From Actinoplanes oblitus (GTDB lineage Bacteria; Actinomycetota; Actinomycetes; Mycobacteriales; Micromonosporaceae), in the NCBI RefSeq assembly GCF_030252345.1, contig NZ_CP126980.1:2557501-2621500 (forward strand): a stretch of 64,000 nt of DNA. The letters are read 5' to 3'. The notes beneath the pieces were generated by a model. That model saw only the letters and a program-made list of their open reading frames with translations. It made no database searches and had not been told where the DNA came from. Position numbers and translations under genes: made by a program. Of the stretch, positions 2,742 to 45,743 are shown in pieces (positions within the stretch are counted from its first letter, which is position 1; each line of letters begins with the position of its first letter).

Positions 2742-4112
2742 TCAGGGGCGGGTCAGCTCGGTGAGGGCGGCGTCGAAGATCTCGTGGTGGCGGGCGACGT
2801 CGTCCAGCGTGGTCTCCGGGCACATCAGCGCCATGTTGTGGAACGGGGTCAGCAGCACCCCGCGATTGGCCAGGTAGACGTGCAGGAAGTCCTCCAGTTC
2901 AGCGTCGGCGCCGGCGGCTGACTCGGTGCCGTTGCGGGGCGCGGGGTCGGCGAACCGGTACTCCACCCGGGCGCCGAGACGACTCACGGACCAGGGCAGA
3001 TCGTGTGCGGTCAGAATCTTCTGAAGGCCGTCGGCGAACGCCGTCGCAGTCGAGATCATCGTGGCGAACGCGCCCTCGGTGAGCACCTCCTCCAGCGTCG
3101 CGCGGGTCGCGGCCATCGACACCGGGTTGCCGGCGAGCGTGCCGCCCACCCCGCCCATGTCGACCAGATCGAGATCGCCGCGCCCGGTCAGCGCGTCGGC
3201 CAGCTCAGCGGACAGGCCGTAGGCACCCACCGGGACCCCGCCGCCGATGGCCTTGCCGATGGTCAGCACGTCCGGCCGCAGATCCCAGAACCGCGTGGCG
3301 CCACCCGGGCCGGCCGAGAACGTGTGCGTCTCATCGTTGATCAGATAGGTGCCGTATTTCCTGGTCAGCTCGCGGACACCGGCCAGATAGCCCGGCTCGG
3401 GCAGGACGATGCCGATGTTGGTCAGCGCGGGCTCCATCAGCACCGCCGCCACGTCGCCGTGCGCCAGCTCGCGCTCCAGCCCGGCCAGATCGTTGAACTC
3501 GGCGACCCTGCTGGTAGCGGTCACGTCAACGGGTGCGCCGACGTTTCCCTCCCGGCTGCGACCGTGCCCGTCCGGCCCGACCACGATCAGCGACTCGTCC
3601 ACCGAGCCGTGGTAGCAGTAGCTGTTGACCAGGATCTTCGGCCGGCCGGTGACGGCACGCAGCAGGCGGATCGCCCACCGGTTCGCGTCGGTGGCGGTCA
3701 GCGCGAAACTCCAGAACGGCAATCCGAATCGGGCAGCCAGCTCGGCGCCGACCACCGCGGCGTCCTCGGTCGGCAACATCGTGGCGGCTCCGCCCAGCTC
3801 ACCGAGTCGTCTGGTAACCGCAGCGACCACCGGCGCCGGTGAATGGCCGGCCATGGCGCCGGTGTCACCGAGGCAGAAATCGACGAACTCGTTGCCGTCG
3901 ATATCGGTCAGCCGGTTGCCGCGGGCGGTCTTCAGATAGACCGGGAAGCCGGCCGCGGTCTTGTTCATCCACGTCATCGGAACGCGCCCGAAGAGATGGT
4001 CGGCGCGGCGGTAGGCGGCGGCGGACCGTGGATGCCGCTCCGCGAAAGCGGCGCGCTCGCGGTCCGTCAACTGCTGGAGAATGATGCGGTCAACCCCGGA
4101 ATCCGTTGCCAT
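2742..4112 (-). CDS. Class III PLP-dependent aminotransferase (glutamate-1-semialdehyde mutase-like)
   Basis: This 456-residue cytosolic enzyme resembles the glutamate-1-semialdehyde aminomutase branch of class III transaminases. Near residue 55 the N-terminal part carries a D-x-DGNEFVDFCLGD stretch typical of the fold. In the middle it has NDETHTFSAGPGG, which binds the cofactor. The PLP lysine sits in TIGKAIGGG at about residue 284. The protein is longer than the usual ~430 residues and lies nowhere near heme genes, so true tetrapyrrole synthesis is unlikely and the substrate is unknown. ATG at 4112 has no strong ribosome site. The gene starts 12 nt after the EEP-fold gene on the same strand, so the two are probably co-transcribed. 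Confidence 0.85.
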   Translation of the reverse strand: MATDSGVDRIILQQLTDRERAAFAERHPRSAAAYRRADHLFGRVPMTWMNKTAAGFPVYLKTARGNRLTDIDGNEFVDFCLGDTGAMAGHSPAPVVAAVTRRLGELGGAATMLPTEDAAVVGAELAARFGLPFWSFALTATDANRWAIRLLRAVTGRPKILVNSYCYHGSVDESLIVVGPDGHGRSREGNVGAPVDVTATSRVAEFNDLAGLERELAHGDVAAVLMEPALTNIGIVLPEPGYLAGVRELTRKYGTYLINDETHTFSAGPGGATRFWDLRPDVLTIGKAIGGGVPVGAYGLSAELADALTGRGDLDLVDMGGVGGTLAGNPVSMAATRATLEEVLTEGAFATMISTATAFADGLQKILTAHDLPWSVSRLGARVEYRFADPAPRNGTESAAGADAELEDFLHVYLANRGVLLTPFHNMALMCPETTLDDVARHHEIFDAALTELTRP

Positions 4113-4124
4113 GGGGCGAAGCTA

Positions 4125-4904
4125 TCAGGGAATCCTTGGCGGTCCATCAGTCCACGGGCTGAATCCGAATTCATCCCGTGGTCTGATGTCGGCCGCCACG
4201 CCGTAGTGGTCGGATAGATACACGCGCCGCCCGCCGGGCAGGGTCACTTCGTCACACAGGACCAGATCGGCGTGCGCCGTGATGCCACCGCGGACCAGGA
4301 GGTGATCGAATGCGGGCGGATGAGGCCACTGCGGAGTGGGGCGATAGGTCGGCCGCCGGTCGCCGGCCATCGCGTCGGCGAGCCCGGCAGCGGTCCGGAA
4401 ATCCGCGAGGGCTGACGCGTCCCGGGGCAGGTTCAGGTCACCGGTCACCACGAGCGGCCGATCCTTGTCGATGCCGGCCAGCAGCCGTGCCAGCACGTCG
4501 AGTTCAGCCCGCTCCACGAGGGCGTAACGGTTGTCCGGCGACCAGTCGTCGTCCCGGTTCGCCGACAGGTGCGTGTTGACGATGACCAGCTCATCGATCT
4601 CCGCGACCAGCGCGCCCTTGCGCATCAGGAACTCCGGCCGCACCGGCCCGGTCATCGGGAACCTGACGAACCGCCAGCGCTTGATCGGCCGGCGAGAGAG
4701 AAGGACCAACCCCCCTTTGAGTACGACGGAGCCCGCGCACGCCGAGTGGGCGAATCCTCGTCGCAGCAGGTTCGCATGCGAGCGGTACATGACTTCCTGC
4801 AGGCACACGACGTCGAAATCGGACTCCCGCAGGATCTCGGCGAGCGCCCGCAGCCGAGCCCGCACGTCACCCCTGATCAGCGCGTTGAAGGTCAGCAAGC
4901 GCAC
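4125..4904 (-). CDS. Endonuclease/exonuclease/phosphatase-family hydrolase
   Basis: This 259-residue protein of the EEP (DNase I-like) fold shows the family's metal and catalytic motifs in order. These are an N-terminal FNA, LQEV at about 36-39 (metal-binding Glu), VNTHL at about 109-113, TGDLN at about 153-157 and a C-terminal LSDHYGV (catalytic His). There is no signal peptide, so it is probably cytoplasmic. The fold covers nucleases, sphingomyelinases and inositol phosphatases, and I cannot tell which. GTG at 4904 is preferred because GGAGG lies five bases upstream. It is the first gene of a probable two-gene unit with the aminotransferase. Confidence 0.85.
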   Translation of the reverse strand: MRLLTFNALIRGDVRARLRALAEILRESDFDVVCLQEVMYRSHANLLRRGFAHSACAGSVVLKGGLVLLSRRPIKRWRFVRFPMTGPVRPEFLMRKGALVAEIDELVIVNTHLSANRDDDWSPDNRYALVERAELDVLARLLAGIDKDRPLVVTGDLNLPRDASALADFRTAAGLADAMAGDRRPTYRPTPQWPHPPAFDHLLVRGGITAHADLVLCDEVTLPGGRRVYLSDHYGVAADIRPRDEFGFSPWTDGPPRIP

Positions 4905-5007
4905 GTCGTCCTCCGATCGTCGCCGCGGGCGGCCTTCGGTGATCCCGGTCCGGCAGACTACCGCGACCGTCGCTACCCGGGTCGCCGCATCCGCCGGCCG
5001 GAGGTCG

Positions 5008-8000
5008 TCAGTCCTCGGCCGCCTTCAGCACGGTGACCGCGCCGTCGCGGCCGGCCGTGACGTAAAGCTTGCGGCCGTCCGGGGAGAGTGCGATCACCCG
5101 GGGGCTGTCGCCGACCTTGATCGTGGCGCTGACCTGCTTGTCCTCCAGGTTCAGCACCGAGACGGTGTCCGAGCCCTCGTTCACCACGTAGGCGTGCACG
5201 CCGTCCCCCGACACCAGCACGGCCTGCGGCAGCTTTCCGACCGTGTACCGCTTGATCAGTCTCAGCGTCGTGGTGTCGTAGGACTCCACCGTGTTCACGT
5301 CGTAGTTGGTGACCAGCACCGTCTTGCCGTCCGGGGTGACCGCCACGCTGTGCGGCGACCGGCCGACAGTGACGTTGTTCAGCACCCGCCCGGTCCTGGC
5401 GTCGATCACCGACATGCGGCTGGACTCGTGGTCCGAGGTGAAGGCCCGCGTGCCGTCCGGCAGGAAGTCCACCCAGTGCGGGTTCGGCGGCACGCTGATC
5501 TGCTGCACCCTGTCCAGCGTGGTGCCGTCGTAGATCTCCACCCGTGCGCCGTTGTGGATCGGCAGCCAGACCCGGCCGTCCGCCCCGACCGCCGGTTCGA
5601 ACGGCCGCGGCCCGGTCTTCACCGACTTGATCAGGCTTCGCTTGGCGGTGTCGATGACGGCCAGCGCGTTCGCGCTGAAGTCGTTCTCGAACATCGACAC
5701 GTAAAGCTTCGAGCCGTCCCTGGACAGCGCCAGGAACCGTGGCGTGTTCGGCACCGCGACCGAGGCGACCTTCTTGTCGCCCGCCCCGACGAAGAACACC
5801 TCCTTCGCACCCTGGTCGGCGACATAGACGAGGCGGTTGTCCGGCGAGACGACCACGCCTTCCGGCTCCCGCCCGGTCCCGTTGATGGTGTCGACGACGA
5901 CCGGGACGGCCAGGCTCACCGGCGCCTTCTCGGTAGGCTCGGCGGGCTGGGTGGCCGCCGCGGACTGGCCGCCGCCGGGCTGCTGTTGCTGCTGGGTCGC
6001 GGTGGGCTGGGCGGTCGGTTCGCTCTTACGACCGGACACGTAGCGGATGCCGAGGTACGCGCCCGCCGCCAGCAGCAGCGAGAGGAGCAGCACGCCTACG
6101 ACTCGCAGGTGCCGCCGGGACGATGGGGCACCTCCGGCGGGAGGTGCGCCGACGCCGTTCGGGGGTATCGGCCCGTCGCCGGGCTGCTGCCAGCTGGGCG
6201 AGTTCGGCCAGCCGGCGGGGGAGGTGGGCCAGGCGGGGTTCGTTCCCTGCTGCCAGCCGTTCCCGTCGGGCGTCCCGCCACCCCAGCCACCGGCAGCCGT
6301 GCCCTGCTGCCCGGCGGCGTTCACGCCCGGTTGTTGCCCCTGCCAGCCGGCCGGGCCGCCGGGAGCGCCCGGCGCACCGGCCAGCCCGCCGCTACGCGTC
6401 CAGTCGTCCGGGCCGTCCCAGCTCACCCGGCCGGACGGCGATCCGGCGATGCTGCCACCGGCTCCAGCTCCCGCGCCGCCTGGTCCGGTCGCGCCGCCGA
6501 ACTGGCCGCCTGCTGCCGTCGCGCCGCCGAACTGGGCGCCTGGTGCGGTTGTGCCGTCGAAGCGGCCGCCTGGTGCCATGGTGCCGCCGAACTGGGCGCC
6601 TGGTGCCGCAGTGCCACCGGGTGCCGGCGTACCGGCCGGGCCGTGTTGTTCGGTGGGATCGTTTGCTCCCGGCCACCCGCTGCTCGCCGCCATCCCGGCG
6701 ACTGTTGTCTCATCGGCCGCCGACTGCGGGCCGGCTCCGGCTGGTCCGGTCTCGCTCGGTCCGTGGGCGTCGGGGCGTGGCCAGCCGCCGGCCGCAGCCG
6801 CTGCGGAGCCCGCTTCCCACGGGAGTCGGGGCTGTCCTCCGCTCCGGTTCTGGCCGGCGGGCCAGCGGTCTCCGGGATCCGCGGCATTGATGTTGCCCGC
6901 AGCGCCCGAGTCGCTGGCGGCGGCAGGCATCGGCCATCCGGCGCCGGGCTGAGTCTGCTCGGTGGGGCTGTCGTCAGCGCGATCGCCGGGCCACGGACCG
7001 GCCGGAGTGCCCATGCCAGCCGGGGTCCCGGTGTCCGGCGGAGTTCCCGTGACCGGCGGTGCACCCGCGGGACTGCTGGGCGGCCAGCTTCCGGTCGGGC
7101 CGGGCGTGACCGGCTCCGTTTGCTGCCCCCACGATGGTTGCAGTATTTCGGGTTGCCGCTGCGGAGCCTCGGGCTGGCCCGGCACCGTCTCCGGCTCGAA
7201 GCGGGCCGCCCTCGGCTCCGCAGCGTTAGGAGTGACGCGGTCGTCCTCACTGCCGTGCCTATCGGGCGACGCTTGCGCGGCGAGCCAACTGCCCACGAAC
7301 CCACCAGCTGCGGCATTTCCCACGGGGCTGGACTCTGCGGCGTTTCCCGGATGGTCGGGTGTTGCGGCGCCTCCCGGGCGGTCGGGTGTTGCGGCGTCGC
7401 CCGCGCGGGCGGGTTCTGCGGCGATTCCGGCCTGGGTGGGTTCTGCGCTGTTCCCGGCGTTGGCGGGCTCTGTGGCGCGGTTCTCTTCCGGCCTGTTGTT
7501 GTCCGTGCGCGAGTCGTCGCTGGGCGACCTGCTGTCGCTGGTGTGGGCGGCGTCGCCTTCGGGTTCATGAATCGGGGAGATGCCGGCGAGGCTGCCAGCG
7601 GCAGGCGGGTCACCAGGGCGGGTGCGCTGGTCGTCCGCATCTTCGGCGGGACTGGCCTGCCATGCCACGGTGTCGCCGCCGGAGTCCATCGGCACCGAGT
7701 CCCACCGCTCGGGTGCCGTCGTTTCGTCCGGATAGGCGACGACAGAGGGGGAGTCCGGCAGTGCTCCGGAAGCCTGCGAACCCTCGGCAGCACTCACCTG
7801 CCAGGCTTGCGTCGAGTTGCCGGTGCCCGCTGGCAACGCGTCGGCTTCCTTGTCACCGACCGGTCGTGGCTGCTCTCGCTCATCGCCGGCCGGTTGCCGT
7901 TCGTCGTGCCCGGCTCCGGGGTGTTGCCATTCAGCTTGGTCGGCCTCGGCCGGTCGCTGCGGGTCCGGTTCGGCGGCGGTCGTTGGCATCGCAGGGGCGC

Positions 8001-10839
8001 TGGGCCACGGCTCGGAGCTTTCCACGCTGATGGTGGGTTCGGCCGGCGACCCGGGCCAGATGTCCGCCGGCGAAGTCACTGCGGCCGACTCCGCTGGACT
8101 GACCGACGGCTCGGTACTCGTGGTGTCCGCCCCCGGCTCGCTCGCCGGCGAGGCTCCTGTTTCGCTCGGCAGATGTGGGACCGGCTCGCCGGGAACCGCT
8201 TGGTCGGACTCCTCCACGGCCACCGGGATGGGTGGGGTCGGTGGAGATTCGTCCAGTTCGTTTCGGCTGGTTTCGTCCGGCGCCTGGGTATCGGCGCTGG
8301 TGGCGCCATCCCAGGCGGGCACCGCCGGCTCGCGGTCGGCCTCGGGTTCGGCCTGAGGCGATTCGTCGGGCCACAGACCGCTCGGCTGGGTGGGCGGCAG
8401 CGCGGTGCCACCGGCGGAGGGGTTCGCCTGCCGAGGGATCGGGTTGATCGGCTCGGTCTGCTGGTGGTCGGCCGGTTCGGCAGGGATGCCGGAGACCGGC
8501 TGGGTGCGGTCCAAGTCAACAGTGGCGTCGCCCGAGTCGACGTCGCGCTGAGTGGGAGGCTCGCCGGATGGCCATGCCGGAGTGGGTGTCGGGTTCCGTC
8601 CGGAGCGTTGATCGGCTTCGGGGGGCTGGGCCCACCAGGTGCCGCTCGGCCGGGCGGTTTCCTCGGTGGCCCTGGCGGACCAACTGTTCGAAGCCGCGGC
8701 GGGGCGCTGGGGACGGCCCGACCACGGACCGCGAGAGGTCGACCTCGGATCCGCCTCGGCGTCCCGCTGGGGTGCGTCGCCCTGCACCGGCGCGACCGGT
8801 CGTGCGTCGCCCTGTACCGGGACGGCCGGTCGTGCGTCGGGTTGCGCCGGGGCAGCGGGTCGTGCGTCGGGTTGCGCCGGGGCAGCGGGTCGTGTGTCGG
8901 GTTGCGCCGGGGCAGCGGGTCGTGTGTCGGGCTGGGCCGGGGCAGCGGGTCGTGTGTCGGGCTGGGCCGGGGCAGCGGGTCGTGTGTCGGGCTGGGCCGG
9001 GGCAGCGGGTCGTGTGTCCTGATCGGCCGGGGTGGCCTGGACCGGCGGGATGAAGAGCTGGCCGGGCGGCGACGAGACCTGGTAAGGCGCGGGGGAGACC
9101 TGGTAAGGCGTGGGCGAGGCCGGATAGGGCAGAGGTGCCTGACCAGGCACGTTAGCGGGATGACCGGCGGACCGGCCGCTCGCATCCCAGGGTGCCGGTG
9201 GGTGCTGACCGGCAGCAGCCGCCCACGGATCCACCGGCTGGCCCGAAGTGGCCTGATGGAAGGAGGACGGAGCACCGGAGGAGGGAGCGCTCGAGGTCGG
9301 TGCGTCCGGCCACGGATCGACGGGAGTGCTCAGCGCCGGATGCCGGGGCGCTCCGGAAGTGGGCTGGTCCGGCGGCCCGGAGACCGGGCGCTGGATGCCG
9401 TTGTACCACTGCGGAGGCGGAGGTGGGAGAACGCGATGCGTGGACTGCTGAGGGGGCTGAGTCGCCGCCGAATCGCCCTGTGGCGGGCCAGCCGGAAAGC
9501 CATGCGCCGAAGCACCCGGGGAATCGCTGCCCGGCAAGGACGCCGCGGAAACGCCTGGCACGCCTTGCGCCGGCACGCCTGGCACGCCCTGCGCCGGCAC
9601 GCCTGGCACGCCCTGCGCCGGCACGCCTGGCACGCCCTGCGCCGGCACGCCTGGCACGCCCTGCGCCGGCACGCCTGGCGCACCGTTCGCCAAACCACCC
9701 GGCACACCCTGCGGCGATGCCGACGGGCCAGACGCGCCGGACTCCTCACCCTCGGAGACCTCGCCGCGGACCGCGACCTGCGCCGACCCCGCCGGTCCGT
9801 CGATGGTCACCACCGCGTCGAGCTGGCCGACCGTCGGGAACCACGAGACCCGCAGCTGATCGCCCTCCAGCCGCGCGTGCAGCCCATCGGCCGAAACGGT
9901 CACCGTGGACGCCGCCACCAACGGCGGGCCGCTGACCGCCACGCGTACCGTCAATTGGCGCGTGCCCGGGGCGACGCGGCCGAAAGTGATCTCTCCCTCC
10001 GCGACCCGCAGCGAAGTGCGCCGCAACGCCGCGGAAGCGGCGGCCGCGACCCGGTCGTTACCGGTGGACATCCGGGTCAGCGTGGCCCGGGACTGCGCTG
10101 CCTGGTGCAGGTCGGGTCCGGCGGCCGCCGCGGCCAGCTCGGCGATCAGGGCCATCTGGTCGCTGCCCGGTTTGCGAACTCTGCCGACCCACGGCTGGCG
10201 GCCGGAACCGTAGACCCAGTGGCGCACGGTGGGGTCGCGTTCGCGCAGGTGGTCGAAGATCTCGTCGACGCCGATGTAACCGTCGCGGTCGCGGTCGGCG
10301 GCGCCGCCGCGGATGGCGTCGGCGAGCAGGCCGGCGAAGGTGGGTGGTTCGGGGCGGGCCGCCGCGGTGATCACCACGCGGCTGCGGGCCTCGGCGGCGC
10401 GGGCGGCCGGGAAGTAGGCGCCGGCGTCGACCGGGCCACCGGTGCGGCCGTCCAGCAGGATCATGATCTGGCCGGCCAGGCTGCGGTGCATCAGCGCGTC
10501 GATCCGGGTCACGTCGACGGCGGTGTCGGCCGGGCGCTGCATGACGGTGTCCGGGGTGGCCAGGTAGAGACCGCCGGCCGGGCCGGAGAGCAGGATGCCG
10601 CGGAAGTAGACCAGCAGGCAGTCGTCGCCGCTCCGGCCGTCGCAGAGCGCCTGCAACCGCTGATAGGTGTCCCAGGTCTCCGGGTCCTGGAGGAACTCGA
10701 CGTCGAACCCGCCCAGACCGGGATCGCCCAGCACGGCGGCGAGGGATCGCACGTCCGCCGACGGCACCGCGTATCTGCGCAGGACCGGATCGTCGTGGTG
10801 TTCGACAGTCACCACAACCGCCAGTCGTCGCCCGCTCAT
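5008..10839 (-). CDS. Pseudo-caspase / repetitive spacer / membrane helix / YVTN beta-propeller protein
   Basis: This 1943-residue protein begins with a caspase-fold (peptidase C14-like) domain at about 1-230. Active relatives carry YFSGHG and LDCCxSG; here the same positions read YFRGIL (78-83) and LDGRTGG (129-135), so both the catalytic His and Cys are absent. An EF-hand-like [12 protein letters not shown] follows at 182-193, as is common in this family. A beta-sandwich-like stretch (about 285-370) leads into a Pro/Ala/Gly-rich region of some 1,150 residues with 8- and 10-residue tandem repeats. One membrane helix lies at about 1577-1598. A YVTN-type propeller fills the last 300 residues, with repeated sPDGrkLYV and TVGxxP motifs. 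The basic residues between spacer and helix (SSRRHLR) suggest the spacer is cytoplasmic and the propeller outside, which is inference. ATG at 10839 matches the family's MSGRRLA start. Confidence 0.88.
6490..6615 (-). repeat. 30-bp tandem repeats encoding a 10-residue Gly-rich unit
   Basis: Four or more degenerate copies of a 30-bp unit inside the pseudo-caspase gene encode ten-residue blocks of the type [10 protein letters not shown]. The period preserves the frame. It is part of the long disordered spacer. Confidence 0.7.
8776..9025 (-). repeat. 30-bp tandem repeats encoding [10 protein letters not shown]
   Basis: About eight copies of a 30-bp unit encode the decapeptide [10 protein letters not shown] and close variants such as [10 protein letters not shown]. 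The central copies are nearly identical at DNA level, which suggests recent expansion. Confidence 0.85.
9556..9682 (-). repeat. 24-bp tandem repeats encoding GVPAQGVP
   Basis: Five near-identical 24-bp units encode the octapeptide GVPAQGVP. This is the third distinct repeat family in the spacer of the pseudo-caspase gene. Confidence 0.85.
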
Positions 10840-11126
10840 CGCATCACCCTTGGTCCATGGTGCGACGTTCGGCGCCGAGCCGGAACCCCTGGAAGATTAC
10901 GAAGTGTTCGTACCTGATGACCTTCTGTTGTTGATCTTTGTCGGGTTACGGGCGTTGTGCGACGATCTAGCAGGTCCGACGCGCTTCCGCGGGCATCGTC
11001 CGGGGAATCCGTCCCGGTGTGCCGATTTCACCGGATCGGTGTCGGAGATCCGTCACGGCCCGCTCCGGAGAGGACCGCGATCCGGAAGATCACCTCTAGA
11101 CTCACGGTCCGAGGTGAGAGATCGAG

Positions 11127-12068
11127 ATGCTTCACGTACGCGTCATCGCCCCGGCCCCGATGTCCGAGGAGGTCCAGCGCCTGCTCGCCGCCGACGAGGC
11201 CGTCACGCACCTGGTGGTGCTGCCCGGCGTCGCCGTGGCACCCCGCGGTGACCTGCTGGAGTTCGACGTGGTCCGGGAGGGTGCCAGCTCCCTGCTCGAC
11301 CGGTTGCGTGACCTGGGCCTGGACCGGGACGGCTCGATAGTGGTGGAGCGGGTCGACGCCGCCCTGAGCGCGGCCGCCGACCGGGCCGCCCGGCGCACCC
11401 CCGGGCTCGGCGTCGACGCGGTGGTCTGGCACGAGCTGGAGCAGCAGACCGGCGAGGAGACCGAGCTGTCCGCCTCGTTCCTGGCCTTCATGATCATCGC
11501 GACCGTGATCGCCGCCCTGGGCGTGCTGCTCGACCAGCCCATCCTGATCGTCGGATCGATGGTGGTCGGACCCGAGTTCGGGCCGCTGGCGGCGCTCTGC
11601 GTCGGCCTGGTGCAGCGGGAGTACCGGTTGGTCCGGCGGTCGTTGCTGGCGCTGGGGGTGGGTTTCCCGGTCGGCATGGTGGTCACCATGATCGCGGTGT
11701 GGCTGCTGACCGCGGCCGGCCTGGTGGACCGGTCGATGCTGCTGGCGGACCGGCCGCTGACCGACTTCATCTGGCGGCCGGACGCGCTGTCCTGGGTGGT
11801 CGGCTTCCTCGGCGGTATCGCCGGGATGCTGTCGCTGACCTCGGCGAAAGCGGGCACCCTGGTCGGCGTGCTGATCTCGGTGACCACGGTGCCCGCGGCG
11901 GCGAACACGGCCGTGGCGCTGGCCTACGTGATCGGCAGCCGGGAGCCCGGCCGCCTGCTGTCCGAGGCGGGTGGCTCGGCCCTGCAGCTGGTCATCAACC
12001 TGAGCGCGATAGTGGTCGCCGGCGTGCTCACCCTGCTGGTGCAGCGGCACGCCTGGCGACGCCGCTGA
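11127..12068 (+). CDS. DUF389 integral membrane protein
   Basis: This 313-residue protein matches the DUF389 (TIGR00341-like) family. An N-terminal soluble alpha/beta part (about 1-100) resembles the domain that precedes the membrane region in these proteins. About six hydrophobic helices follow from residue 118 to the end. The conserved GSMVVGPEFGPLAAL segment at about 147-161 and the TSAKAGTLVGVLISVTTVPA segment in the second half are family hallmarks. The function is unknown; uptake or channel roles have been proposed for the family. ATG at 11127 follows a GAGGTGAGAG ribosome site. The gene stands alone and diverges from the pseudo-caspase gene across 287 bases. Confidence 0.9.
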   Translation: MLHVRVIAPAPMSEEVQRLLAADEAVTHLVVLPGVAVAPRGDLLEFDVVREGASSLLDRLRDLGLDRDGSIVVERVDAALSAAADRAARRTPGLGVDAVVWHELEQQTGEETELSASFLAFMIIATVIAALGVLLDQPILIVGSMVVGPEFGPLAALCVGLVQREYRLVRRSLLALGVGFPVGMVVTMIAVWLLTAAGLVDRSMLLADRPLTDFIWRPDALSWVVGFLGGIAGMLSLTSAKAGTLVGVLISVTTVPAAANTAVALAYVIGSREPGRLLSEAGGSALQLVINLSAIVVAGVLTLLVQRHAWRRR

Positions 12069-13944: not shown

Positions 13945-15786
13945 TTACGGTACGGCCGGGTAGTCGTTCACGTAGACCGGCACACCGATCTTCGTGGTGT
14001 CGGCCGCCTCGCCCACGCCGTTGACCACGTGGTCGATCGTGCCGGCGCTCAGGTTGACGGTCATGATGTGGTGCAGCTTCACGCCCGGCGTCTGCGGCGC
14101 CTCGAAGCCGTTCTCGGTGTGGATCGACGGGTTGTTCTGGTTGAACACGTACACCCCGGCGCCGTACAGGTGGTGGGTCTTGACCTTGGCCCCGATCTTG
14201 TAACCGGCGTAGCCCTCGACCGAGCCGTTCATCCAGTCCGCCTGCGTCGGCGGGTCGTACGGCAGCTCGTTCTGGTACAGGATCGTGGTGCCGCCGTTGC
14301 CGTTCCAGACGGTGTTGTACTTCTGGAAGTGCTCGACGAACAGGCCGGTGGCGGTCACGTCGTCACCGTTGATCACCGCGCCGTACGTACCGATGTTGGT
14401 GTTCCACCGCTCGGTGTCGCCGCCGGTGAAGCCCTCGACGCCGTGGTCGGCGCGCCACACCCAGGTGTGGTCGATCAGCACGTGGTCACTGTTGACCTCG
14501 AGCGCCACGTCGGCCTTGCCGATGTGCGGGCCGCCCACCCGGAAGTAGACGTCCTGCAGCGAGGTGGGGTTCTTCGGGGTAGTGAGAAGGCCGAGGCTGC
14601 CCTTGCGGCCGACGCGCAGCAGCGCGGACGACTTCTGCGAGCCGGCGTCGATCGAGATACCCGCGACGGCCACGCCGGGGACGTCCTCGACCTGCAGCGG
14701 GGTGGCCCCCTTGACCGCGGTCAGCGTGGCGTGGCCGAGACCGAGCACCACGGTGTTCGGCCGGAGCACGTCGATGGTGCGGTCGATGTTGTAGATACCC
14801 GGCGTGAACAGCAGGTTCTTGCCCAGCGCCAGGGCCAGGTTGATCTTCGCGACCGAGTCGCCCGGCTTCGCCACGTAGAAGTCGCTCAGCGGGATGGTGC
14901 GGCCGGGGGAGTCCCAGGTGACGCCGGCGGTGTCGCGCTCCACGGCCGGCACCCGGACCTGGTACCTGCCGCCGGCGTCGACGAAGAGGTACGGCTTCTC
15001 CCGGCTGACCGGGGTCTGCGCCAGCGTGGTGTACGGCGGGTTCGGGAACGCCGCGTCGTCCGGGGCGCCGGTGACGCCGGCGAAGACCTGGTTCCACACG
15101 CCGTTCGACCAGCTGCCCACCTCGCTGTTGCGGGTCAGCCACTGCTGCTGCGACCCGTTCACGATGGTCTCCGCCTTGGCGTCGGCGATGTAGCCGCCGC
15201 TGCCGTACTGCGGGCCGGCGGTGCAGTAGTCCATCAGCGACAGGGTGCCCCCGGTGAACTGCACCCGGCGCAGCGAGACGGCCTGCGAGACGGCCCAGAA
15301 GTTCGCCGTCGACCGGCAGCCGTCCTGGCCCTTGGCGTTGATGTTGACGGTCAGGTTGGAGACGGTCCGCCAGAAGTTGACCAGCGCGAGGCAGTTGCTC
15401 GTGCCGCCGTTCTCCAGGCAGCGGTTGTACACCTCCACCTTGCCGTTGATCACCACGTCGCCCGGGTTGGCGCCCAGCCCGGAGATCTCGGTGTAGTAGC
15501 CGACCTTGACCTGCAGCGGCTGGTCGGCGGTGCCGTACGTGCCCGGCTTGAAGAGGAAGGCGTACCGGTCGGTGCCCATCTCGTTGTCGACCTGCTTGGC
15601 GTTCGCGGCGTCCAGGGTGGCCTGGATCTCGCTGACCGGCATGCTCGGGTCGAAGACGGTGACGTGGGCGCCCAGGTCCGGCGCGGAGGAGGGGTGCGCG
15701 GCGGCCGGCGCGGATTGCGCCGTGATCGCCGTGACGGCCAGGCCGAGCGCGAACGCACCCGCGCCGAGCCGGCGGATTCTCGTCAT
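13945..15786 (-). CDS. Secreted GH55-like beta-1,3-glucanase (right-handed beta-helix)
   Basis: This 613-residue protein has a clear signal peptide: MTRIRRL, a hydrophobic core and an Ala-Pro-Ala-Ala-Ala cleavage region near residue 30. The mature part looks like the two-beta-helix proteins often labelled coagulation factor 5/8 type in actinobacteria, a group that includes GH55 exo-beta-1,3-glucanases. Segments I recognise are LFKPGTYG, CRSTANFWAVSQAVS, FVEHFQKYNTVWNGNGG and YQNELPYDPP; the Glu of the last matches my recollection of the GH55 acid catalyst. It would release glucose from beta-1,3-glucan outside the cell. ATG 15786 is preferred over in-frame 15831 because the signal peptide starts there and GGAAGGGG lies nine bases upstream. 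The family call rests on remembered motifs, so other beta-helix hydrolases remain possible. Confidence 0.65.
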   Translation of the reverse strand: MTRIRRLGAGAFALGLAVTAITAQSAPAAAHPSSAPDLGAHVTVFDPSMPVSEIQATLDAANAKQVDNEMGTDRYAFLFKPGTYGTADQPLQVKVGYYTEISGLGANPGDVVINGKVEVYNRCLENGGTSNCLALVNFWRTVSNLTVNINAKGQDGCRSTANFWAVSQAVSLRRVQFTGGTLSLMDYCTAGPQYGSGGYIADAKAETIVNGSQQQWLTRNSEVGSWSNGVWNQVFAGVTGAPDDAAFPNPPYTTLAQTPVSREKPYLFVDAGGRYQVRVPAVERDTAGVTWDSPGRTIPLSDFYVAKPGDSVAKINLALALGKNLLFTPGIYNIDRTIDVLRPNTVVLGLGHATLTAVKGATPLQVEDVPGVAVAGISIDAGSQKSSALLRVGRKGSLGLLTTPKNPTSLQDVYFRVGGPHIGKADVALEVNSDHVLIDHTWVWRADHGVEGFTGGDTERWNTNIGTYGAVINGDDVTATGLFVEHFQKYNTVWNGNGGTTILYQNELPYDPPTQADWMNGSVEGYAGYKIGAKVKTHHLYGAGVYVFNQNNPSIHTENGFEAPQTPGVKLHHIMTVNLSAGTIDHVVNGVGEAADTTKIGVPVYVNDYPAVP

Positions 15787-15903
15787 GCGGAGGAGCCCCT
15801 TCCGAAACAACATCGCAATGAACCTGGTCACGGAAGCAATCGGCGTAGCTCCATGTCAAGTGCCGGGAAAAGGCATACGGGCTGCAATCCGGGCAAGCCA
15901 CCT

Positions 15904-30857: not shown

Positions 30858-33653
30858 GTGCAGGAAGAATCGACCGATCCCGAACCGGCCGCCAAGCGTC
30901 CCGCTCGCTGGCGCCGGGCCGTCACCACCGTCGCCGCAGTGCTGATGTTCTGGAGTGCCGCCGGTGCCGGCGCCGCCGAGGCGTACATCGAATCCGTGCC
31001 GGTGCCCGGCGCCGCGCCGCAGCCGCAGGCGTCGGTCCTGTACTACCGGGACGGGAAGACCATCCTGGCCCGGGTCGGCGCGACGGACCACAACGACGTG
31101 CCGCTGTCGGCGATCTCGCCGGCCCTGCGTCAGGCGGTGCTGCTCGCCGAGGACCGCGACTTCTACGACCACGCCGGGGTGTCGCTGCGCGGGGTGGCCC
31201 GCGCGATGGTGGCCGACGTGAGCGGCAAGCGCCAGGGCGCCTCGACGATCACCCAGCAGTACGCCCGGAACGCCTTCCTGAGCCAGCGCGTCACCGTGGA
31301 CCGCAAGATGCAGGAGCTGGCGCTCGCGGTGAACCTGGAGCGGCAGTACGGCAAGGACGAGATCCTCGCCCGCTACCTCAACACGATCTATTACGGTCGC
31401 GGCGCGTACGGGATCGCCGCCGCCGCGAACGCCTACTTCGGGGTGACCCCGGACCGGCTCGACTTCGCCCAGAGCGCGGTGCTGGCCGCGGTCATCAAGG
31501 ACCCCTGGACGTACGACCCGGACCACGACGCGACGGCCGCCCGGCGACGCTGGAACTGGATCTTCGCGACGGCCCGGGACGCCGGCCTGATCGACCCGGC
31601 GACGGTGACGTACCCGGACATCCGGCCGGCCGGATCGGCGATCGGCGGCCCGCTCGGCCTGGTCGTCGACCAGGTGGAGCGGGAGCTGGCCGGGCACGGC
31701 ATCTCCTCCCGGCAGCTGCACACCCAGGGCCTGCGGGTGGTCACCACCCTCGAGCAGGCGGCCGAGCGGGCCGCTGTGGACTCGGTGCGGGCACACCTGC
31801 ACGGGCAGCCGGCCGGGCTGCGGGCCGCCCTGGTCGCGCTCGACCCGGCGACCGGCGGGGTGCGTGCCTACTACGGCGGCGAGCACGGCAGTGGGTATTT
31901 CGACAACGCGTCGGCCCCGCACCCGGCCGCCTCGACGTTCAAGGCGATCGTGCTGGCGGCCGCGCTGGGCCGGGGCATCGCCTACCAGTCGCGCTGGGAC
32001 GGCAGCTCGCCACGGCTGTTCCCGGACCGCGGCGTGCCGCTGCGCAACCACGACAACCTGCAGTGCGCCGAGTGCACGCTGCAGCACGCCATGGTCGACT
32101 CGCTGAACACCCCGTTCTACGCGGTGACCGCGCAGATCGGGCCGAACCGGGTGCGGGACATGGCCGTACGCCTGGGCATCCCGGAGAAATACGACGGCCG
32201 GAAATCGATGGTCGACGTGAAGGGCGACCCGGCGCCGGGGAAGACCCGCGGGGACATCGCGCTGGGCCGCTACCCGGTCGTCCCCGGTGACCTGGCGACC
32301 GTCTACGCCACCCTGGCCGGCAACGGGGTCCGTCACCAGCGCCACTTCGTGGAGTCGGTGACCGGCGCCGACGGCTCCGGATACACCACACCGGACACCC
32401 CGGCCACCGTGCTCGACCCGAAGATCGCCGCGGACGTCACCACCGTACTGACCTCGGTGGTGAAGGAGCACGGCATCACCCCGGGCCGCCCGGCGGCCGG
32501 CAAGACCGGCACCCAGCAGTACCGGGACACCCTGGACAACCAGGACGCCTGGATGGCCGGGTACACGCCCGAGCTGGCCAGTGTGGTCTGGATCGGCAAG
32601 GCGAAACCCGGGCCGCTGCGCGACGCGAGGAACAAGCGCATCGAGGGCGACACCATGCCGTCCTACCTGTGGCGCGACTTCACCCGGTCGGCGCTGCGGG
32701 GCACCCCGGTCAGCGCGCTGCCGCGGCCCGCGCACGTCGGGCGGACCGACGCCGGCGACTTCGGCAAGACCGGCCACGACGAGAAGAATCCGGACTCGGT
32801 CACCACGCTGCACGCCGCCGCGGCCGGTTACCAGCCGGTGGTGCGCACCGAACACGCCGGCAAGCGGCTCGCGCTCACCTTCGACGACGGCCCGGCCGAG
32901 GACACCCCGGCGGTCCTGGATCTGCTCGCGCAGTACCACGTCAAGGCCACGTTCTGCGTGGTCGGCGAGAACGCGACGTGGTACCCGCAGCTGGTGCGCC
33001 GGATCGTCGCCGACGGGCACCGGCTCTGCAACCACTCGATGCACCACGACGACCTGGGCATTCTCTCCGAGGCGAAGAGCCGCGCGGACATCGCCGAGGC
33101 GGACGCCGCGATCGCTGAGGCCGTGCCCGGTGCGACGGTGACCTACTACCGCGCGCCGTACGGCGACTTCGGTCCGTCGGCGAAGGCCGGCGGGAAGGCG
33201 GGGCACACGCCGCTCGGCTGGGTCGTCGACCCGGACGACTGGCTGCTGCCCGGCGCCGACGTGATCGCCGCGCGGATCAAGCAGCAGCTCACGCCGCGGG
33301 CGGTGGTGCTGGTGCACGACGGCGGTGGTGATCGGAAGCAGACGGTCGCGGCGTTGCGCAAGCTGATCCCGCAGTTGCTCGCGGACGGGTGGACGTTCGA
33401 TCAGCCGGAGACGACGGTCGTCAGCAAGCCGCTGCCGGGACCGCGGGCCAGCGCCAGCAGTCCGGCACCGTCGGTGTCGCCGTCGGTCTCGTCGTCGCCC
33501 TCGCTCTCGCCGTCGGTGTCCGATTCCGCCTCGCCGTCGGTGTCGCCGTCGTCCTCGCCGTCCGATCCGGTCTCGTCCGGGCCGGCGCCGTCGGTCTCGG
33601 TGCCCACGCCGAGCGATTCGGCGAGCAGGGGCCGGCCGTCGCGGAACCGCTGA
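30858..33653 (+). CDS. Penicillin-binding protein fused to a polysaccharide deacetylase
   Basis: This 931-residue protein has an N-terminal membrane helix (about 22-42). A GT51 peptidoglycan glycosyltransferase domain spans about 65-240, with AEDRDFYDHAG holding the catalytic Glu (~96) and ASTITQQYARN. The transpeptidase domain (about 300-600) has ASTFK (Ser ~356), SLN (~414) and KTGT (~548). A NodB-type CE4 deacetylase follows (about 670-860), with TFDDGP (~673), NHSMHH (~725) and RAPYGDF (~764). The end is a Ser/Pro tail. It could polymerise and cross-link glycan and also remove N-acetyl groups from it in one extracellular molecule. GTG 30858 is the only start compatible with the in-frame TAG at 30849. 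All key residues of the three domains appear present. Confidence 0.92.
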   Translation: MQEESTDPEPAAKRPARWRRAVTTVAAVLMFWSAAGAGAAEAYIESVPVPGAAPQPQASVLYYRDGKTILARVGATDHNDVPLSAISPALRQAVLLAEDRDFYDHAGVSLRGVARAMVADVSGKRQGASTITQQYARNAFLSQRVTVDRKMQELALAVNLERQYGKDEILARYLNTIYYGRGAYGIAAAANAYFGVTPDRLDFAQSAVLAAVIKDPWTYDPDHDATAARRRWNWIFATARDAGLIDPATVTYPDIRPAGSAIGGPLGLVVDQVERELAGHGISSRQLHTQGLRVVTTLEQAAERAAVDSVRAHLHGQPAGLRAALVALDPATGGVRAYYGGEHGSGYFDNASAPHPAASTFKAIVLAAALGRGIAYQSRWDGSSPRLFPDRGVPLRNHDNLQCAECTLQHAMVDSLNTPFYAVTAQIGPNRVRDMAVRLGIPEKYDGRKSMVDVKGDPAPGKTRGDIALGRYPVVPGDLATVYATLAGNGVRHQRHFVESVTGADGSGYTTPDTPATVLDPKIAADVTTVLTSVVKEHGITPGRPAAGKTGTQQYRDTLDNQDAWMAGYTPELASVVWIGKAKPGPLRDARNKRIEGDTMPSYLWRDFTRSALRGTPVSALPRPAHVGRTDAGDFGKTGHDEKNPDSVTTLHAAAAGYQPVVRTEHAGKRLALTFDDGPAEDTPAVLDLLAQYHVKATFCVVGENATWYPQLVRRIVADGHRLCNHSMHHDDLGILSEAKSRADIAEADAAIAEAVPGATVTYYRAPYGDFGPSAKAGGKAGHTPLGWVVDPDDWLLPGADVIAARIKQQLTPRAVVLVHDGGGDRKQTVAALRKLIPQLLADGWTFDQPETTVVSKPLPGPRASASSPAPSVSPSVSSSPSLSPSVSDSASPSVSPSSSPSDPVSSGPAPSVSVPTPSDSASRGRPSRNR

Positions 33654-43073: not shown

Positions 43074-45743
<2,670 letters not shown>

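Follow-up and report, generated by a model that had tools for sequence, protein, structure and literature searches.

What holds a caspase in place once its catalytic residues are gone? The question is raised by a single gene in a 64,000-nucleotide stretch of the Actinoplanes oblitus genome (contig NZ_CP126980.1, positions 2,557,501 to 2,621,500; called the window throughout), the host genome being 9.8 Mb in one contig. The gene runs on the minus strand from an ATG at 10839 to a stop at 5008 (open reading frame, ORF, 5008-10839) and encodes a caspase-like head without catalytic residues, joined through a very long linker to a transmembrane (TM) helix and a β-propeller. The answer that we favor, with moderate confidence, is that this one gene by itself encodes a pseudo-caspase membrane protein peculiar to its clade. 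In this reading, the protein descends from an active caspase-TM receptor in the EACC1-associated class, a substrate-side loop disappeared along with the catalytic pair, and the protein then became fixed for a new function that involves no proteolysis. Its parts, in window coordinates, are:

5008..10839, minus strand: whole gene (pseudo-caspase, helical region, Ig-like domain, linker, TM helix, YVTN propeller), 1,943 aa plus stop
10228..10839, minus strand: pseudo-caspase head, residues 1-204 (the domain extends to about 221)
10591..10596, minus strand: I82-L83, aligned with the catalytic His-Gly of active heads
10444..10449, minus strand: G131-R132, aligned with the Cys-Cys pair of active heads
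10261..10296, minus strand: EF-type loop, residues 182-193, retained by the pseudo clade as well as by most aligned active relatives
9757..10014, minus strand: Ig-like β-sandwich, residues 276-361, from AF2 strands, Foldseek row 2wwk and likeness to the active relative L059
6115..9756, minus strand: linker rich in Pro, Ala and Gly, residues 362-1575, containing tandem repeats and frequent Trp-Pro pairs
6046..6108, minus strand: single TM helix, residues about 1578-1598, by hydropathy
5011..5919, minus strand: YVTN β-propeller, residues 1641-1943, by TIGR02276, AF2 model and Foldseek

The head matched the NCBIfam family caspase_w_EACC1 (NF047832) over residues 7-201 with 75.9 bits (E 3e-21), short of the family cut-off of 140, and scored 81.7 bits in a genome-level search with the same model, also under the 140-bit cut-off. 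Pfam Peptidase_C14 (PF00656) was not among the matches of the window protein at E<=1, and a sequence search of solved structures with a profile of the head returned no match at E<=0.01. Caspase chains aligned to the head model over residues 1-222, a span that may include p10-like elements, and the caspase fold of the NF047832 class was found in the head. A viral structure library gave mainly virus caspases and Ig-like phage domains, which were weaker than the PDB matches. The best fold match was the paracaspase MALT1 (caspase-Ig3), which likewise carries an Ig-like domain after its caspase domain, but the two domains are placed differently (root-mean-square deviation, rmsd, about 23 Å over both) and the matched chains have neither a TM helix nor a propeller. 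MALT1 is an active protease. In the window protein, helices at residues 226-274 lie between the head and the Ig-like sandwich; the preliminary description of this locus, which was made from the sequence alone and named no strand, had overlooked this sandwich, while the domains that it did list were all recovered.

The marks by which that description recognized the gene (an MSGRRLA start, LYLATPDT at residues 91-98, the EF-type loop and a frame of 1943 codons) were all verified in the translation, and comparison to active heads verified that I82-L83 replaces H-G and that G131-R132 replaces C-C, the second Cys of which we take to be the nucleophile. The clade was then scored at both positions, with a pattern that fixes the letters flanking the sites and leaves the sites themselves free, in 56 sequences, of which 36 are locus rows and 20 are protein records that may share strains with them. 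The second site was GR in all 56 sequences in which it is present (40 distinct cores), and the first site was VM, IL or IM in 20, 13 and 7 of the distinct cores. The sole record without the site, P0023, is the window's own gene with a late annotated start that cuts it off. H-G and C-C were retained in all 16 aligned active heads of the genus. Both catalytic positions of a caspase fold, established by family and fold matches, are therefore lost in all 56 clade sequences and not just in the window copy. No homologue with the same architecture kept both residues, and no replacement His or Cys was found elsewhere in the site: no Cys of the head is invariant, and its single invariant His (197) is located after the EF loop, which was itself matched in every listed clade sequence.

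A further stretch of the head was lost with the catalytic pair. The segment spanning residues 128-204 is 77 aa long in seven pseudo rows as compared to 89-110 aa in the 16 active rows, and the motif [EQ][YF][AS][FY]E, seen in 15 of the 16 active rows (the exception is L071), is absent from the pseudo rows. This motif is probably part of substrate recognition, and the loss of the substrate-side loop along with the catalytic residues makes a role as a peptide trap less likely. Of 234 head positions, 101 do not vary among the aligned pseudo rows. At 38 of these 101, many of them around the old site (80, 131-133, 136-138, 162-169), the same residue occurs in no more than 10% of active rows, in a comparison that is poorly aligned past position 205.

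Substitution patterns indicate purifying selection on the protein. Across 12 complete orthologues, neither the 204-aa head nor the following 156 aa shows an insertion or deletion, the propeller measures 292-293 aa, and the linker ranges from 953 to 1,862 aa. Median pairwise dN/dS (Nei-Gojobori, 66 pairs among the 12 orthologues) was 0.30 for the head, 0.34 for the next 156 aa, 0.41 for the propeller and 0.59 for the linker, values that are rough with third-position GC (GC3) near 0.9. Codon-position GC follows a coding pattern in the head (0.77/0.50/0.92) and in the propeller (0.64/0.45/0.96) and is flat in the linker (0.76/0.70/0.77). The frame from head to propeller is open in 11 of the 12 orthologues, the twelfth (L030) being interrupted by an assembly run of N, and the ORF is thus more than a high-GC artifact. 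Complete copies keep open frames of 1,390-2,608 aa. Selection rather than decay, as initially proposed, is borne out by these frames, by medians below 1 and by the loss fixed in 56 of 56 sequences.

The relatives of the head point to its origin. In a midpoint-rooted tree of 12 pseudo and 17 active heads (29 in all), the pseudo heads formed one group (100/100) with a stem of 1.48 as compared to 0.02-0.17 on internal branches; constraint after so long a stem is what a change of function would leave. The group joined the active proteins L058 and L059 (99/100). L059 (566 aa, LDCCYGGA) is 32% identical over the head and, separately, 44% identical over 89 aa of the Ig-like domain (E 8e-15), with a TM helix at 464 and then an LppU/SCO3897 domain. 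L058, a 644-aa frame, has a Pro-rich repeat linker between its head and a TM helix at 464, with no match to the Ig domain. From these architectures, the likely ancestor was an active caspase-TM receptor, which, judging by the L059 match, perhaps had the Ig domain too.

At the other end of the protein, hydropathy placed the single TM helix at about 1578-1598 and TIGR02276 recovered the YVTN repeats with 115.2 bits against a cut-off of 27.85, in line with the order first described. The AF2 model of the propeller reached a predicted local distance difference test (pLDDT) score of 91.9 and a predicted template modeling (pTM) score of 0.87. Its best Foldseek match was 1l0q, an archaeal surface-layer YVTN propeller (32% identity, rmsd 1.4, 261 columns), which also came first in a profile search (E 4e-61), followed by hydrazine synthase beta. 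While 1l0q is the best match in both sequence and fold, in the archaeal protein YVTN is paired with PKD domains and not with a caspase. Successive propeller repeats carry invariant PEG, PRF, PRPF, PPNPHW, PH, PQA and SPRV in 16 aligned rows, and these motifs may form one conserved binding face, a placement made from the sequence without coordinates.

The linker had been described as a flexible repeat arm of about 1,150 residues; its nature stands, but its length was measured as about 1,214 aa (362-1575). Its tandem repeats have periods of 18-72 bp, and its composition is low in hydrophobic residues and 2.8% Trp. Trp-Pro pairs are 2.0-3.9 times as frequent as expected from composition in all 13 linkers examined (that of L030 covers only 206 aa), with 13 pairs observed in the window linker and 6.3 expected, and they could be short binding motifs or stickers. 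Hydropathy, charge and the lack of a signal peptide by eye suggest that the head and linker are cytoplasmic and that the propeller lies outside. In the subclade to which the window copy does not belong, R/K counts before and after the helix were 4-6 and 1-3 in seven of seven copies, a clear signal.

Carriers of the gene made up 27 of 67 genomes of Actinoplanes, a soil-dwelling genus; 20 of the carrier loci were inspected in context and the remaining seven rest on the search table. None of the other 287 genomes of the family (354 minus the 67 of the genus) was a carrier at the threshold used, with up to eight best candidates scored per genome, so distant relatives could escape; all 16 head relatives found at named loci are Actinoplanes. 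Of the EACC1 two-gene system, the 3' caspase protein is present and no 5' EACC1 gene was found at the 27 loci: EACC1 (PF19953) had no match near the pseudo-caspase in any carrier, in a search that divergent copies under E 1e-3 would escape. The closest match on the same contig was about 72 kb away (G010), and six of the 27 carriers (G019, G028, G081, G089, G091 and G093) had no genome-wide match. In the window genome, the only two EACC1 matches lie directly upstream of a 1,431-aa frame and of L006, an active 749-aa protein with a caspase-Pro-rich linker-TM-YVTN plan and a propeller about 25-32% identical to that of the window protein.

Loss of EACC1 together with catalysis was considered and dropped, as the active L058 and L059 have no EACC1 match beside them either and, by reading, other kinds of genes upstream. 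The absence of EACC1 is thus a trait of the branch and not tied to catalytic loss, and the L058/L059 branch as a whole may be EACC1-independent. At the L058 locus (4511-6391, minus strand), reading of the ORFs places amino-acid biosynthesis-like genes upstream, again with no EACC1 match.

Within this framework, the steps that we infer run from the propeller inwards. Through loops that do not vary, the propeller would bind a constant ligand of the wall or surface, and the TM helix and leash, whose reach would be tens of nanometers, would carry the signal inward. The non-catalytic pseudo-caspase-Ig head would then dock a partner or ligand in the cytoplasm, with Ca2+ at the EF loop possibly tuning this step, and the signal would be transmitted by recruitment or tethering, without cleavage. 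We put forward a little more tentatively, at just under even confidence, that the protein is a stand-alone trans-envelope sensor that lacks the EACC1 partner of its class and works in cells without any active caspase, as a non-proteolytic adaptor.

Several observations weigh against this picture. The gene is absent from 40 of the 67 genomes of the genus, and a carrier-specific partner gene was not found in the neighborhood and genus comparisons. The nearest active relatives, L058 (G087:C7) and L059 (G029:C1, 2.4 Mb), likewise have no adjacent EACC1 match. R/K counts before and after the helix are 2 and 3 in the window copy, contrary to the charge rule, and four more copies from the same subclade give 3-4 and 2-3. 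Peptidase_C14 misses the window head, so other divergent caspases could be missed as well, and the roughness of the dN/dS values bears on the argument from selection.

If the picture is correct, a death-protease fold has been turned into a constitutive non-proteolytic signaling adaptor in multicellular actinobacteria, and the network of bacterial caspases that has been proposed to lie behind multicellular conflict responses gains a branch that works without proteolysis. Dead caspases are usually read as decoys of live ones. This clade combines a complete, fixed loss with active caspase-TM relatives in the same genus (one with the same Ig domain) and two complete carriers in which searches for two caspase families detected no second caspase domain, which makes the use of the caspase fold without proteolysis a directly testable question in culturable bacteria.

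A decoy or dominant-negative role, in which the dead head would form dimers with active caspases of the EACC1 type in its own cell and thereby tune them, has its own support and is, in our estimate, unlikely. The window genome has three caspase heads above the NF047832 cut-off, including L006 with its similar plan, and a head that shares at least 70% identity with L006 occurs in six genomes, all of them carriers (hypergeometric 0.003, relatedness uncorrected); a YVTN propeller was found in three of the four such L006-like proteins read, the exception being L065. Most carriers have further caspase matches. Kaur et al. 2020 (PMC7159879) put about 70% of the caspase domains in effector position of vWA-MoxR systems as inactive, and propose that these are perhaps dominant negatives or peptide binders. 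A eukaryotic parallel is c-FLIP, a catalysis-free caspase homologue that regulates a live one (PMC10814526). The window protein shares this lack of catalysis, but it has no match to a death-effector domain (Pfam, E<=1), and no second caspase domain was detected in carriers G091 and G093. These two complete, single-contig genomes gave one NF047832 match each, which from its score is probably the pseudo-caspase itself, and no Peptidase_C14 match, CHAT and other clan CD families not having been searched. A decoy role is therefore not general. In addition, 21 of the 27 carriers have no head that near L006, and L058 and L059 rather than L006 are the nearest active relatives. Recruitment of active caspases, which the preliminary description had suggested, was accordingly not upheld as a general role, given these two carriers (two families searched) and the lost [EQ][YF][AS][FY]E loop.

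It is also doubtful that the protein is a structural leash, a fold-only anchor that joins the envelope to a cytoplasmic structure with the linker as its working part. The persistence of a long linker across 12 orthologues despite sequence drift would fit, as would the roughly 660-aa linker still present in the shortest complete records (1,390 aa) and the Trp-Pro excess in every linker examined. However, conservation sits in the head and propeller and not in the linker, and the invariant positions of the head exceed the needs of an inert plug. A repurposed enzyme, whose remodeled site (R80, G131, R132, T133, D138, R162) catalyzes another reaction, is very improbable: the new residues in and near the old site are indeed invariant in the aligned rows, but no known catalytic arrangement was recognized among them, and the head offers no invariant Cys and a lone invariant His beyond the EF loop. 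Least credible by far is a caspase receptor in decay, for which the missing catalytic residues and a related record seemingly out of frame in the linker (P0027) might speak, since the clade-wide fixed loss under purifying selection (56 of 56 sequences, complete open frames, median dN/dS below 1) excludes decay and refutes this reading for the clade as a whole. P0027 (Actinoplanes sp. CA-252034, 571 aa) has a pseudo-clade head and a linker that turns Arg-rich and ends early, and is either a sequencing slip in the repeats or a truncated allele.

The kind of protein is already known. EACC1-associated caspases share the N-terminal caspase fold with an EF-type loop, the TM helix and the variable C-terminal domain, and the window genome itself holds an active caspase-TM-YVTN member, L006, with its upstream EACC1 gene; the window protein differs in its lost catalytic pair and [EQ][YF][AS][FY]E loop, its score below the cut-off and its giant linker. 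Pseudo-orthocaspases were treated in a 2019 paper, reportedly by Klemencic et al. That paper counts three pseudo-variants among 636 actinobacterial sequences (PMC6426788), and these resemble the window protein in being prokaryotic p20-type folds that have lost the His-Cys dyad and are conserved within a clade; the protein described here differs in its [IV][LM] and GR sites and its TM-propeller architecture. For the EACC1 and caspase class, Kaur et al. 2020 (PMC7159879) report up to 50 C-terminal domains, with TM helices in at least 33%, and the caspase network was extended in a 2021 study (PMC8195603). No description of the Actinoplanes pseudo-caspase was found by title and abstract in the open-license literature, which does not prove its absence from print. 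The claim of an undescribed system hence does not hold in that form: pseudo-caspases and the caspase-TM fusions of the class are described, and no clade-specific partner gene emerged, whereas this clade and its architecture were not found described. A second, independent-looking inactivated head of the class was noted in P0029, a metagenome protein of 544 aa with no HG at the first site, LDCSSD at the second and a different C-terminal half.

Two neighboring genes lie on the same strand:

2742..4112, minus strand: class-III transaminase, downstream (NF005453 'transaminase', 602 bits)
4125..4904, minus strand: endonuclease/exonuclease/phosphatase-family gene, detected at some loci only, all of the window's subclade

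The transaminase was rejected as a specific operon partner, since it occurs in 25 of the 27 carriers but also in 25 of the 40 genomes that lack the pseudo-caspase; at ten of these 25 non-carrier loci, which were inspected, there was no adjacent pseudo-caspase, Ig-head or HHH neighbor. A pectate-lyase-like gene upstream (13945-15831) has matches in 67 of 67 genus genomes, and DUF389 (11127-12068) has matches at three of 34 locus rows, and both were likewise set aside. WD40 partners had been suggested earlier, but the WD40 gene at 15-2552 was matched at only five of the 34 orthologous locus rows, which include at least seven pairs that are the same genome twice; the listing of conserved neighbors, also proposed then, brought out no gene specific to the clade. 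PADLOC anti-phage models did not match the pseudo-caspase protein at E<=1e-3, and nothing within the window exceeded the Rfam gathering score. An antisense ORF on the plus strand (4531-10917, 2,128 aa) was rejected as a real gene; of 12 orthologues, only L031 is free of stops in this frame, the other 11 having 5-19 each, and the frame is thus carried by base composition.

Elsewhere in the window genome, L007, from about base 15699 on the plus strand (G000:C1:4649698), is a long caspase-domain protein with intact SGHG and DACRE, 10 kb from another active caspase, and farther along it looks by eye like an HSP90-type ATPase. Within the window, a penicillin-binding protein with transglycosylase and transpeptidase domains is fused to a C-terminal polysaccharide deacetylase domain (30858-33653, plus strand) and could both build and trim the wall. 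A single protein at 43074-45740 (minus strand) combines a GH10 xylanase, a ricin-type lectin and GH62, and GH3 and lytic polysaccharide monooxygenase genes lie elsewhere in the window, a neighborhood for plant-biomass degradation.
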